Assembly (NCBI RefSeq): GCF_003073135.1
Contig: NZ_PGDQ01000002.1
Location: forward strand, 124,001 to 188,000
DNA: 64,000 bases
Source: Euzebya rosea
Lineage (GTDB): Bacteria; Actinomycetota; Nitriliruptoria; Euzebyales; Euzebyaceae
Direction: 5' to 3'
A model generated the notes under the pieces. That model saw nothing but the letters and a program-made list of their open reading frames with translations, did not search any database and was not told where the DNA came from. Positions 25,247 to 52,484 of this stretch are shown piece by piece. Position 1 is the first letter of the stretch; every line of letters begins with the position of its first letter. The translations under genes and the position numbers were made by a program.

Positions 25247-25773
25247 CTAGCTGGTCCTGAGGCTGCTCAGGGTGACGTCCATGGTGATGTCGCCGGGGGT
25301 GGAGATGTAGTTGCGGATGTGGACCTCGAAGGTCTCGCAGTGCTTCACCTTGCCGGCGGAGGCGTTCTCGCCGTTGCCGTCCTGCGGGTTGAAGCTGTGG
25401 GACTCGCCGACGACCTGGCCGTTCTTGTGGATGTCCATGTCGATGTCACCGGTGTGCTCCCACATCAGGGACACGGTGGGGGTGGCGGCGACGTGGTCGG
25501 GGTTGACGTCCAGCAGGATCGTGTAGACGTCGGTCGCGGCCTCCTGGAAGCCGAGCGGGTCGGGCTCGCCGCCGAGGCCCAGCGGGTAGGGCGACATCGC
25601 CGTCGGGGTCGGGACGACCTCCGTCAGGCCGTCGGTCGTCAGGACGTAGTCAGCGGCCTCGACCTGGTCCTGGGTGCAGGGCTGGGAGACCGGGGCGGGC
25701 GGGATGGGTCGGCGCCGGCCGGGATGGCGGTCAGCAGCATGGCGACGGCGGCGAGGGACACGAGGGTACGCAC
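25247..25773 (-). pseudogene. frameshifted small exported protein
   Basis: A GTG at 25773 opens a clear signal peptide (RTLVSLAAVAMLLTAIPAGA) preceded by AAAGG. Right after the signal peptide the frame runs into Arg/Pro-rich nonsense and a stop, while a neighbouring frame continues without a stop as PIPPAPVSQPCTQDQVEAAD and on to a beta-rich domain ending at 25247 (SLMWEHTGDIDMDIHKNGQV, VHIRNYISTPGDITMDVTL). One missing C in the C-run of GACCCATC, about 60 bases downstream of the GTG, restores one continuous reading frame. The repaired product, about 175 aa, would be an exported beta-sandwich (PPC-like) protein. It is either a true null allele or a sequencing error in a C-run. Confidence 0.7.
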
Positions 25774-47641: not shown

Positions 47642-47789
47642 GGGTCAACTATCGGCAAGTCGCCGCGACATCTGCACGAGTTGGTGCACAGCGTCTCCGA
47701 CGAGGTGCGGGCTGATCAGCACCGTGGCGTGGCTTCCCGCGGGAGGACGCGTTCGGAAACCCGTGTCCTGGTCCCGCAGGTCAGATGGT

Positions 47790-47845
47790 GTGCGCGAGAC
47801 AGGACTTGAACCTGCACACCCGTGAGGGCACTGGGACCTAAACCC
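47790..47845. repeat. distal attachment-site copy: tRNA-Leu 3' fragment
   Basis: These 56 bp are identical to 52400-52455, the 3' part of the tRNA-Leu(UAG) gene from the anticodon stem to the discriminator base and one base beyond. At 47846 the match stops abruptly. The fragment lacks the 5' half and cannot make a tRNA. It is the scar left when the element inserted. The homology extends a further ~16 bp leftward with two mismatches (shared CCGCAGGTCAG). Confidence 0.93.
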
Positions 47846-47946
47846 CGTCCGAGGAGTGCCGCGGGGTTGCGTTGCGTGCCGGGACGTGCCGCTGACCTGC
47901 GGTTTCGTGGATCCGATTTGCCAGTGGTGACGCCGAGATTCCTTCG

Positions 47947-47978
47947 CTGTCACATTTCTCGTGACAGATCCGTGACAG
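47947..47978. repeat. arm-type repeats, left end of element
   Basis: GTGACAG occurs at 47961-47967 and 47972-47978 (11-bp step), with an inverted copy CTGTCAC at 47947-47953. The 23 bp at 47956-47978 are identical to 52315-52337 at the other end. Lambda-type integrases bind such arm sites beside the core. The 345-bp gap 47642-47987 holds this, the attachment fragment and no gene. Confidence 0.7.
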
Positions 47979-47987
47979 GAAACGCGG

Positions 47988-48395
47988 TCAGCGGGGCTCG
48001 GCCAGGAAGCGGGCGGTGATATGGGACATGGCCAGCGAGTCGCCCAGCCCGACCAGCATGGCGTCGTCGTCCAGGTGCAGGTGGTCACGGCCGATGTCGG
48101 GGTGATGGTCGTTGCGGCAGTACCTCCACAGCCATCGACGATCACGCATGAAGTGCGCCGACACCAGCAGGGGTTCTGCGAGTCGATCCGGCGCGGTGTC
48201 CACGACCATGTGCAGATGCAGGCTTGCGGTCGGCGTCCATCGCACAGCGAGCGGCCCGATCTCCAGGAGTTCACCCGTCATGTCCGTGCAGTCAGGGGCG
48301 CCGTCCGGGGCCGTGTCGGCCCCGAGTTCGTCGAGCCAACGACGGATGAAGCCTTCAACCTCGTCGGGACCGACAAGGTGGTAGGGGAAGAACAT
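47988..48395 (-). CDS. unknown protein, second gene of element two-gene unit
   Basis: A 135-aa soluble protein without membrane segments. It has an acidic first half (FIRRWLDELGADTAPDGAPD) and a basic, His-rich second half (RRWLWRYCRNDHHPDIGRDH, then LHLDDDAM) that could bind metal or nucleic acid. Its ATG directly follows the TAG of the upstream 62-aa gene, so the two are translationally coupled. The small-first, larger-second layout recalls toxin-antitoxin pairs, but no known family is recognised. Confidence 0.7.
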   Translation of the reverse strand: MFFPYHLVGPDEVEGFIRRWLDELGADTAPDGAPDCTDMTGELLEIGPLAVRWTPTASLHLHMVVDTAPDRLAEPLLVSAHFMRDRRWLWRYCRNDHHPDIGRDHLHLDDDAMLVGLGDSLAMSHITARFLAEPR

Positions 48396-48584
48396 CTACG
48401 ACGCGTGAGCGGCCGCGCGGTCTCGGACCAGGACGAGGGCGTCCCAGCGACGCAGGTCATCATTGGCGCACGGTTCACCGGCACCGATAATCGAGCGCCG
48501 CTCCTCCGAGGGCACGCCATAGCGCGCCTCGAATTCCGCGATCGCCTCGAGGATCTGGTCCAAGCTCATGTACGGCCTTGCCAT
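48396..48584 (-). CDS. unknown 62-aa protein, first gene of element two-gene unit
   Basis: A 62-aa helical, acidic protein (MSLDQILEAIAEFEARYGVP, SEERRSIIGAGEPCANDDLR, RWDALVLVRDRAA). Its stop codon abuts the start of the 135-aa gene. The helical, charged profile fits an antitoxin or partner protein; this is only a structural impression. A shorter start (MSLDQI) is possible. The 131 bp upstream (48585-48715) hold no other gene. Confidence 0.62.
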   Translation of the reverse strand: MARPYMSLDQILEAIAEFEARYGVPSEERRSIIGAGEPCANDDLRRWDALVLVRDRAAAHAS

Positions 48585-48715
48585 GCCACCAGAGTACTTC
48601 CACCACCAGCGATCGGGTCGAGCACGTCCACGTCGGCCGCACCTCGTTGGGCCGCACGGCGTCAGGTCGTGGCCCCGTTGATCTGTCCCTCCAGCCACCT
48701 GTGAGAGCCGTCCGT

Positions 48716-49195
48716 TCAGCTCCCGGCCACTGAGATGGTTCCGTGCATCCCCGCTTGTCGATGCCCGCCCACGTCGCACCAGTAGACGTAGGTCCCCGCC
48801 TCCAAGGTCAACTCGTTGAGATAGCGGCCCGGATTCCGGGCTTGGAGCACTGGACGTTCCCCGTTGAAACCCTCGATCACCACGTTGTGGATCAGGTCGT
48901 CGACGAGGACCTCCAGGGCGACCGTGTGCGTGCCGGGCTCCATGCGCGACGGCGCCGAAATGAACGACAGCCCTTCGGTGACCCAGACGTAGTCGGCATC
49001 ACCGGTCATGTCCAGCACACCGACGGAGTTGGCGTAGGGGCTCCCGACGGCGCCAAGTCCCCCACCGTTGACAAACCAGACGCCTGCTGCCGCGGCGGCA
49101 ACAAGCATGATCACGCCTTGCACGATCCGACGTGGCGTCCGGGTAGTCGACGCGTCACCAGTGGACGTATCTGGCCCTCCCCAAGATCCCGTCAT
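48716..49195 (-). CDS. membrane-anchored cupredoxin
   Basis: A 159-aa protein. A polar N-terminus precedes one membrane anchor (IVQGVIMLVAAAAAGVWFV, ~25-43). The rest is a type-I copper fold: ligand His in DLIHNVVIEGFNG, and Cys-His-Met in the closing loop YWCDVGGHRQAGMHG (C-x4-H-x4-M). It should carry one blue-copper centre outside the membrane, for electron transfer or copper handling. It is divergent from the ECF sigma gene across 268 bp and could be its target. Confidence 0.85.
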   Translation of the reverse strand: MTGSWGGPDTSTGDASTTRTPRRIVQGVIMLVAAAAAGVWFVNGGGLGAVGSPYANSVGVLDMTGDADYVWVTEGLSFISAPSRMEPGTHTVALEVLVDDLIHNVVIEGFNGERPVLQARNPGRYLNELTLEAGTYVYWCDVGGHRQAGMHGTISVAGS

Positions 49196-49418
49196 AGAAG
49201 CCAAGGGTACCGGCCGGGCTGAGGTCGTTGCCTCGGCGCCCCTGGGACCACGGCAGATCTGGGCGGCACGAACGGGGGTTCACTTACCCGCGGCTAGATC
49301 TCCACCGACAGCACACAGACTTGCATTCTGATGCCGGGGCCGGTGGATTGACCTATTTGAAGACTGGCGCAAGCCGGGTCGGGCCGCTGTAGCGGGGCAA
49401 CTTTCTTTCAAGTATGGA

Positions 49419-49444
49419 GCAACCGTTTGACCGGGCTGTGCGTT
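49419..49444 (+). promoter_or_regulatory. candidate ECF-type autoregulatory promoter
   Basis: GCAACC at 49419-49424 and CGTT at 49441-49444 are separated by 16 bp, the usual layout of ECF sigma promoters. It would start transcription about 10-15 bp before the sigma factor ATG. A similar GCAAC block occurs 22 bp upstream (49397). The 49196-49463 gap contains no gene. Confidence 0.4.
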
Positions 49445-49463
49445 GTTGAGGGTGATGTCAAGC

Positions 49464-49979
49464 ATGGATGAGCAGCAATCGGCAGCCGAGTCATTCGGGG
49501 CCGTGTACTCGCGGGAGCACGACGGAATGGTCAGGTTGGCGTTCCTGTTGACCGCGGACAGGGAGGCTGCAGCGGATTTGAGCCATGACGCGTGGGTTGC
49601 GGCGTATCGCCGTCATGAGCGACGGCCGCTGACCAACATCGGGGCCTACGTGCGTACGTCGTTGATCAACGGGGCCCGGAGCCGCGGGCGTCGGCAGAGC
49701 TTGGAGCGTGTGGTGGGGAGGGCGCGCCCGGTTGCGCCGCCAGACGTCGACCCAACCGCGGGTGTCACGGAGCGGAGCGCCTTGCTGGCTGCCCTCGAGG
49801 TTCTACCCGTCCGCATGCGGACCGCGGTAGTGCTCCGGCACTACGCCGACCTGTCGGTCGCACAAGCGGCGAGGGAGATGGGAATTTCGGAGGGTGCGGT
49901 CAAGTCGGCCACGGCACGGGGCCTTGAACGCCTGCGCGAGGCCATGAACGAGGAGGAGAACGCCGATGCAACAGCCTGA
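49464..49979 (+). CDS. ECF-type sigma-70 factor (SigE-like group)
   Basis: A 171-aa sigma factor with regions 2 and 4 only: SFGAVYSREHDGMVRLAFLL and LSHDAWVAAYRRH (region 2), LPVRMRTAVVLRHYADLSVA and MGISEGAVKSATARGLERLR (region 4 helix-turn-helix). It matches the actinobacterial SigE/SigM-like ECF group. Two ATGs exist; 49464 has the more plausible distance from GAGGG, 49455 is too close. It overlaps the next gene by 14 bp, so sigma and partner are made together. Confidence 0.88.
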   Translation: MDEQQSAAESFGAVYSREHDGMVRLAFLLTADREAAADLSHDAWVAAYRRHERRPLTNIGAYVRTSLINGARSRGRRQSLERVVGRARPVAPPDVDPTAGVTERSALLAALEVLPVRMRTAVVLRHYADLSVAQAAREMGISEGAVKSATARGLERLREAMNEEENADATA

Positions 49980-50943
49980 CCTGGACCGTCAGCTGCACGA
50001 CCTCGCGTCGTCGCTTGACCCACCCCGCCCGGACTTCGGCCGCGTCGTGGCTGACAGTCGGCCCATGCGGCCGGTGCGCTTCGTGCAGCTGGCTGCAGCG
50101 GTGTCGATCGCTGCTCTGGTTGTGACTGCTGGGGCGTTGCTCTTGCCTGGGTCGAATCAGACGGAGGTGGTTCTGGACTCGGGAGGAGTCGAAACCACGG
50201 CACCGACGCCGACGTTGCTGGCTTCGACCGAGAACATGTCGGTTGACTTGGACTACCCCGACGCCACGATCGCCGCGGACGCGGCGGCGTATGCGGCCGA
50301 GTGGGTCCGATACGGCTTCAATGAGCCGCTGCCCGACGTGGACCTGTCGGACACCTTCGTGCTCTTCGTGAACATCGGGAGGTCCAGCACGTGCGTCCCC
50401 CAGTTCCAGGGCCTCGACGTCAGCGGCGGCCGATGGGTACTCGATACCACGACCCGAGGCGATGAAGGTGCCGACGAACTTGGCGATGGCCTCCTCATGT
50501 GCACGGCCGATGAGCGGCCGCTTGCGTGGGTAATCGCCGTGCCCCGCCAGCACCTGCCAAGCACCACCGTGCTGCTACACGCAGATGAATGGGCCCGGGA
50601 CGTCGCACTCCAGCCGGTGCCCCCACACGATGAGGGAGCGACCTGTGAGCAGGTCGTGGAGGCGCTGGTCAACGAGCTCCGTGAGGCTGCTGCCGGCGCC
50701 TTGGCGACCGGCGGCACCTTGGAGGTCGAGGGCCGCGTCCCGGATCAGTTGGGGCCTGGGTCGGACTGCACGGAGAGCGAATTGCGAGGGTTGCTTCGGG
50801 ACCGGGTGCTGACGCTGGTTGAGGAGGTGTATGCCTCAGACGAGTTCGCTGAGGCCGACGAGCTGGTGCAGAGGGATGTCGGCAACCAGCTGTCAGTTCT
50901 TGTGCTCTTGCTGGAGGACGCTCCGACTCCGCAGCCCACGTAG
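49966..50943 (+). CDS. single-pass membrane protein, putative anti-sigma factor
   Basis: A 325-aa protein. Residues 1-37 are cytoplasmic, 38-60 a membrane helix (FVQLAAAVSIAALVVTAGAL), and the rest (~265 residues) extracytoplasmic and acidic with four spaced cysteines (SSTCVPQ, LLMCTAD, GATCEQV, GSDCTES). It overlaps the sigma gene, the usual anti-sigma position, although no zinc-binding anti-sigma motif (HxxxCxxC) is visible. The large outer domain would be the sensor. No domain name is recognised. Confidence 0.75.
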   Translation: MQQPDLDRQLHDLASSLDPPRPDFGRVVADSRPMRPVRFVQLAAAVSIAALVVTAGALLLPGSNQTEVVLDSGGVETTAPTPTLLASTENMSVDLDYPDATIAADAAAYAAEWVRYGFNEPLPDVDLSDTFVLFVNIGRSSTCVPQFQGLDVSGGRWVLDTTTRGDEGADELGDGLLMCTADERPLAWVIAVPRQHLPSTTVLLHADEWARDVALQPVPPHDEGATCEQVVEALVNELREAAAGALATGGTLEVEGRVPDQLGPGSDCTESELRGLLRDRVLTLVEEVYASDEFAEADELVQRDVGNQLSVLVLLLEDAPTPQPT

Positions 50944-51039
50944 TAGCCGCCCGGAACCAGAGCGTGCGGCGGGCCAGATCGCTCGGCCGAGGGTCTGCAC
51001 TCGGACTTGAGGAGCTGGAGGGGCGACTCGGGTGGACGG

Positions 51040-52299
51040 CTACTCGCCCAGCAGCAGGCGGGCGAGGGTGTCGGCCTGCTCGCGGTCGTCGGCGGGGAGG
51101 GCGTGGGCGTAGGTGTCGAGGGTCATGCCGACGCTCGCGTGGCCAAGGCGGCGGGACAGGGTCTTCACCTCGTGCCAGCCCGTGGCCTGCCGCAGCGCCG
51201 TCGTGGCGTAAGAGTGGCGCACGTCGTGCAGCCGGATCTTGGGCAGGCCCGCCAGCCGGACGTGGCGCTCGAACCACTTCGATACCCGCTCTGGATTGAT
51301 CAGCGTTCCGTCGGGCCAGGTGAACACGACGTCGGCGCGGGCGACGCCGCGGGAGTCCTGCGGCTCGCGGGGCCACCGCGGGCCGGCCATCAGCTTGAGC
51401 TCTTGCTGCTGCTTGCGATGGGCCTTCAGCGCTCGGACCGTCAACGGGTCCAGCGCCAGCGTCCGGGCTGACGCTTCGGACTTCGGGCGGGGCTTCTAGA
51501 CCGGCTTGCTGCCGATCGCCCCGAGCGTCTGGTTGACCGTGGCCAGGCCGTTGGTCAGGTCGAGGTCGGGCCAGCACAGACCCAGCGCCTCGCCCCGACG
51601 TAGCCCGGTCGTGGCGTACAGCAGCCACAGGGCGTACAGCTCGTCGTCCTCGACGTGGCGGATGAACGTCCGCAGCTCCTCAAGCGTCCACACCTCCGTC
51701 CTCGGCTTGGCCGCCCGCGGCGGGTCCACCAGGTCGGCGACGTTGCGCACCACCCGATCCCAGCGCACCGCGTGAGCCAACGCCTTGTGGAGGATCCCGT
51801 GGACGTTCGCGAGCGTCTTGGCCGACACGCCCTGCCCGCGCCGCCCACCGGACCGCTCCAGCTCGGTGTAGGCCCGCTCCAAGTGCGAGGCGGTCAGGTC
51901 CTGCAGCTTCACCCCGCCGATCTGCGGGACGATGTAGGCGCGGACGTAGTCCGCGTACTGCTGCCACGTCGCCACCCCAACCCGGCCCCGCGACCGCCGG
52001 CCGTCCTCCGCCGACGACGGCGCCTTCGACGGCAGCTACTCGTCCACCAAGAACTGCGCCACGGTCACCGTGTCCCGCGGCACGACGACGCCACCGTCGG
52101 CCTGGACCATCAGGTCGCGCAGCGCCCTGGCCGCATCGCGCTCGAACTCGAAGCCCTGCTTGCGCTGCTGCCGACGGCCGCCAGTCACCGGATCAGGCGG
52201 CAGATCGCACACGTAACCCCAACGCCGCGCCCCACGCGACGTCCGGTACGCGTACACCGAACCCTGCACGTCTCGCACCCTACGCCCGGGGTGCGACAC
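51040..52299 (-). pseudogene. tyrosine recombinase (integrase) with two in-frame amber codons
   Basis: One frame of 420 codons encodes a complete phage-type integrase: N-terminal DNA-binding part, core-binding domain (ATWQQYADYVRAYIVPQIGG) and catalytic domain with Arg in TGLRRGEALGLCWPD, HDVRHSYAT and LGHASVGMTLDTYAH (His and Tyr). TAG stops interrupt it at 52038-52036 (after QFLVDE) and 51498-51496 (after GSKPV), with no frameshift. Both lie where relatives often carry Trp (EWLP and W-x-P), so each may be one TGG-to-TAG change. As read, no active integrase can be made. GTG 52299 or a later GTG could be the start. Confidence 0.85.
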
Positions 52300-52314
52300 C
52301 GGTCACGCCCCAGA

Positions 52315-52337
52315 TTCTCGTGACAGATCCGTGACAG
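52315..52337. repeat. arm-type repeat, tRNA end of element
   Basis: 23 bp identical to 47956-47978, containing GTGACAG twice (52320-52326, 52331-52337) at an 11-bp step. It lies between the integrase start and the intact tRNA-Leu, 63 bp from the core repeat, in the same orientation as the left copy. Confidence 0.72.
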
Positions 52338-52400
52338 CGAACCCGGAACTACGACACTGCCTCCACTACCGAAATCGGCAAATCCGCAGGTCAGGTGGAG

Positions 52401-52484
52401 TGCGCGAGACAGGACTTGAACCTGCACACCCGTGAGGGCACTGGGACCTAAACCCAGCGCGTCTGCCAATTCCGCCACTCGCGC
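52401..52484 (-). tRNA. tRNA-Leu (anticodon UAG)
   Basis: An 84-nt type II tRNA. Acceptor stem GCGCGAG/CTCGCGC with A discriminator, D-arm GCGGAATTGGCAGAC, anticodon arm CTGGG-TTTAGGT-CCCAG (anticodon UAG, reading CUA), long variable arm TGCCCTCACGGGTG and T-loop GGTTCAAGTCC. CCA is not encoded. Its 3' 55 nt are repeated at 47790-47845, marking it as the integration target; the gene is intact. Confidence 0.96.

Follow-up and report, generated by a model that had tools for sequence, protein, structure and literature searches.

The 64-kb window (by which we mean the whole stretch of Euzebya rosea DNA that was analysed) contains a 4.6-kb island enclosed by two copies of the 3' part of a tRNA-Leu(UAG) gene (Table 1). 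The copies form an exact direct repeat of 56 bp with a spacing of 4610 bp, and the similarity extends leftward to positions 47774 and 52384 with 2 mismatches (72 nt at 97%). Both ARAGORN and Rfam recognised an intact tRNA-Leu at the right boundary (anticodon TAG in DNA), the only tRNA with a UAG anticodon found in the genome. While the right copy of the repeat is the 3' part of this intact gene, the left one consists of the 3' part only; since it lacks the 5' part of the tRNA, it represents the att duplication expected of integration and a tandem tRNA duplication is ruled out. No further att-like copy and no tandem element were found within the window, and the GC content of the island (67.4%) is below that of the window (71.1%). 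The sequence-only reading had thus correctly described the repeat and the intact tRNA at one boundary, although its edges ‘defined to the base’ have to be given up, as the crossover may fall anywhere within the identical 56 bp.

Both ends of the island carry arm-like repeats, one direct (GTGACAGATCCGTGACAG) and one inverted (CTGACCTGCGGTTT). They are common to the islands found at the same tRNA in two congeners, G003 and G001 (in the latter only the left copy of the inverted arm lies within one mismatch), and the direct repeat is absent from the unoccupied locus of a third, G002. The arms suspected in the sequence-only reading are real, and two congeneric islands have kept them.

Table 1. Features of the tRNA-Leu(UAG) island (positions in the window)
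Feature	Position	Strand	Remarks
attL core, 3' part of tRNA-Leu(UAG)	47790..47845	.	identical to 56 bp of the intact tRNA
Left inverted arm repeat, CTGACCTGCGGTTT	47892..47905	+	exact copy at the corresponding place of the G003 island; left end of the G001 island, 1 mismatch
Left direct arm repeat, TTCTCGTGACAGATCCGTGACAG...	47956..47987	+	both ends in each of the three congeneric islands
135-aa protein, second gene of the small pair	47988..48395	-	no family assigned
62-aa protein, first gene of the small pair	48396..48584	-	FE.RYGVPSE motif also in G006
Predicted membrane-anchored cupredoxin-like protein	48716..49204	-	below Pfam cut-off
Motif CGACAGCACACAGACTTGCATTC, 23 bp	49306..49328	+	
ECF sigma factor, SigE family	49458..49979	+	TIGR02983
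325-aa predicted single-span membrane protein, putative anti-sigma factor	49966..50943	+	
Tyrosine integrase, probable pseudogene	51040..52299	-	TAG stops at 52036-52038 and 51496-51498
Right direct arm repeat	52315..52346	+	
Right inverted arm repeat, AAACCGCAGGTCAG-like	52381..52394	-	one mismatch
Intact tRNA-Leu, anticodon UAG	52400..52484	-	contains attR, 52400-52455

The cargo agrees in outline with the genes first proposed from the letters: a cupredoxin, a gene pair without family, an ECF sigma/anti-sigma pair and nothing recognisable as a replication or transfer family (no relaxase among them). The sigma factor is borne out by TIGR02983 (E=5e-40; 137.1 bits, slightly under the cut-off of 141.55), while its partner is a putative anti-sigma factor, judged by its place after the sigma gene and by a membrane segment predicted in it; no family model matched the 325-aa protein. 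The two genes overlap by 14 bp, as those of ECF sigma/anti-sigma pairs usually do; we infer that this pair would regulate the cupredoxin-like gene, whose product displays a type-1 copper ligand pattern (H, C-x4-H-x4-M, read from the sequence). Relatives of the cupredoxin-like protein are common (the best in G001, 46%), and neither the 325-aa membrane protein nor the 135-aa protein was found in any congener. For the small pair, the search for a function gave no family, PDB or plasmid match, and the only convincing homologous pair is that of G006, where the same gene order recurs beside PIN/Phd-type and AbiEii-like genes; these neighbours, toxin-antitoxin-type as judged from their sequences, hint that the pair may be toxin-antitoxin-like. 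The structure models were too poor for searching (mean pLDDT 38.5 for the 135-aa and 45.9 for the 325-aa protein), and our literature searches found no report of ECF genes carried by small tRNA islands.

The tyrosine integrase gene adjoins the att site, roughly 100 bp from the tRNA. Its translation gives a full-length frame in which codons 88 and 268 are TAG, and the three resulting pieces match arm-binding, SAM-like and catalytic domains. The sequence-only reading had recognised the integrase and missed the two in-frame stops, and its description of the island as ‘self-contained’ is misleading, because the integrase is broken. When four related stop-free integrases are aligned, both stops fall on invariant tryptophans, numbered W78 and W258 in G003. 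Considering that the product shares 93% amino acid identity with that of G003, at a dN/dS of 0.107, the function was probably lost recently. The two stops could also be assembly or base-calling errors.

The same tRNA site was located in three congeners, where the genes of the right flank (60516, 61483 and 62319) come after the tRNA, indicating that the loci are orthologous. In G002 the site is unoccupied (a single tRNA, with no repeat, arms or integrase, and a left flank that is not orthologous). In G003 it is taken up by a 5.1-kb island whose integrase is intact; the exact att repeat measures 55 nt, with a spacing of 5092 bp, and the cargo belongs to the PIN, Phd, ParE and AbiEii (toxin-antitoxin) families. 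In G001 a 10.9-kb island lies between the att copies, with a related integrase (81% identity), a TrwC/MobF relaxase with helicase and other genes that differ from those of the other islands. The ends and the integrase are therefore common to the three islands and the cargo differs between them; when the window is compared with G003, the conserved stretch on the left breaks off next to the first cargo gene, and that on the right at the end of the integrase. These loci uphold the proposal of an island integrated in tRNA-Leu(UAG). As to the uninterrupted locus that the sequence-only reading had wished to see, an unoccupied orthologous tRNA exists in G002, while the exact join of 47.79 and 52.46 kb with both native flanks was not found in G001, G002 or G003, since the left flanks differ in all three. 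No older nested att copies were found to the left of the G003 island. The integrase has diverged from that of G003 about as much as chromosomal genes have (a comparison in which the automatic ortholog picks for gene 58221 are unreliable), so that long residence with cargo replacement is indistinguishable from separate arrivals, and this measure failed to discriminate between vertical and horizontal histories.

From these observations we conclude, with considerable confidence, that the window holds a small integrative element belonging to a family resident at tRNA-Leu(UAG) in the genus, and that the interruption of its integrase has probably left it stranded here (in the manner of a cis-mobilizable element). 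An alternative is that the integrase still functions through UAG readthrough or recoding and that the element has stayed mobile. Each stop is a TAG in place of a tryptophan codon, and conservation is good over the remainder of the protein, including its catalytic region, as this alternative would have it; however, TGG becomes TAG by one transition, so that two such changes by chance are unremarkable, and the natural stop of the integrase is TAG too. Moreover, no suppressor (CTA-anticodon) tRNA was found among the typed tRNAs of the genome (one weak match, on C31, is untypable), and none of the 13 further integrase-domain matches in the genome has an internal stop, which together make it most likely that the gene is dead. 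UAG recoding was rejected on the lack of a suppressor among these tRNAs, and we rate the chance of a functional integrase as very slight.

An origin as a phage satellite or prophage remnant was suggested by the ‘satellite-type’ label of the sequence-only reading, and a tyrosine integrase at a tRNA site is indeed also typical of prophages and satellites. Against it, the only matches among phage families were the integrase, a generic sigma factor and a plastocyanin-like protein, the integrase shares only ~30% identity with phage integrases and has no relative in the viral contigs, no packaging, capsid-interference or replication genes were found in the island, and the sister island of G001 bears a relaxase instead. 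The label was consequently dropped, as the comparisons with phage families, phage integrases and viral contigs lend no support to such an origin, which we hold to be extremely improbable. Mobility in trans, with a helper supplying integrase and transfer functions, agrees with the intact appearance of the att sites and arms and with the relaxase of the G001 relative; yet among the other integrases found in this genome even the nearest shares about 39% identity, so that no helper of matching specificity suggests itself, and we consider this option unlikely.

The island belongs to a known kind, the tRNA-integrated islands. The solved integrase closest in sequence (chains 6emy/6en0, ‘Int protein’) is one that we take to be Tn1549 Int. 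Tn1549 is a conjugative transposon with a loose choice of targets, unlike the family described here, which occupies the same tRNA gene in each of three species. Integrative and mobilizable elements (IMEs) and mobile genomic islands (PMC5704250) are alike in their tyrosine integrase, tRNA 3'-end target, direct repeats and variable cargo (toxin-antitoxin genes included), and in the G001 relative a relaxase is present while no T4SS was recognised. The window element differs from them in having no relaxase, no recognised excisionase and a broken integrase; its two nonsense codons set it apart from IMEs, which are defined by an intact integration/excision module. With the cis-mobilizable elements (CIMEs) defined in the same review it shares kept att sites, a predicted loss of the integration function and the lack of transfer genes, although its integrase gene is still there, interrupted by two stops rather than deleted.

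Several other loci deserve mention. The TrwC/MobF relaxase gene of the 10.9-kb G001 island (L080:9816-13325, on G001:C3) stands without recognised T4SS genes, and a 2017 review knew of no canonical IME with a MobF relaxase (PMC5704250). On G001:C28, a tRNA-Val is directly followed by the arm sequence AAACCGCAGGTCAG (L189:5882-5975) and a second relaxase-like gene lies nearby (L189:9631-12783); this locus is probably another island of the same type at another tRNA. In the genome under study, a weak and a strong tRNA-Glu(ttc) on the same strand enclose an integrase (G000:C7:149712-158132), possibly a second tRNA island of ~8.3 kb, and two adjacent tRNA-Pro(tgg), one of them weak, lie ~1 kb from an integrase gene (G000:C2:207693-209423).

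The otherwise unrelated cargos of the window and G003 islands have one rare motif in common. The first 20 bp of it, CGACAGCACACAGACTTGCA (49306-49325), recur exactly and in the same orientation in the G003 island (L078+L079 joined, 25492-25511), whereas the longest other words common to the two cargos measure 13-16 nt. The 23-bp version occurs once elsewhere in this genome, on C28 (L176:3911-3933), and with up to 2 mismatches the window, the G003 island and C28 are its only places in 101 genomes. It lies upstream of a plus-strand cargo operon in both islands and may thus be a promoter or operator, or else a remnant of common ancestry. One may further imagine the family as a cargo-swapping platform, in which the integrase and ~150 bp of the left end stay fixed at one tRNA, the intervening genes are exchanged at sharp boundaries and the 20-bp motif is where incoming cargo recombines or is regulated; we regard this as a rather improbable scenario.

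In the history that we favour for the stranded element, a circular form bearing the tRNA 3' part between arm sites would have entered the chromosome as its tyrosine integrase recombined this 3' stretch with that of the resident tRNA. The outcome would have been a complete tRNA next to the integrase and, at the opposite edge, a second copy of the 3' part. Relatives have retained the integrase and both ends with other genes in between, and two later nonsense mutations would have interrupted the integrase in this genome, so that the element probably cannot move by itself. The cargo that it retains would comprise an ECF sigma/anti-sigma switch, a copper protein anchored in the membrane and the small, maybe toxin-antitoxin-like, pair. 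Of this history, the site, the ends, the common integrase, the exchanged cargo and the nonsense codons are visible in the sequence comparisons, and the mechanism of recombination, the loss of function and the roles of the cargo are deduced from them. In four genomes of a poorly studied actinobacterial class, one tRNA site is thus seen unoccupied, holding a small island with an intact integrase, a relaxase-bearing relative or a stranded island, and the loss of the integrase could fix regulatory cargo in the chromosome.
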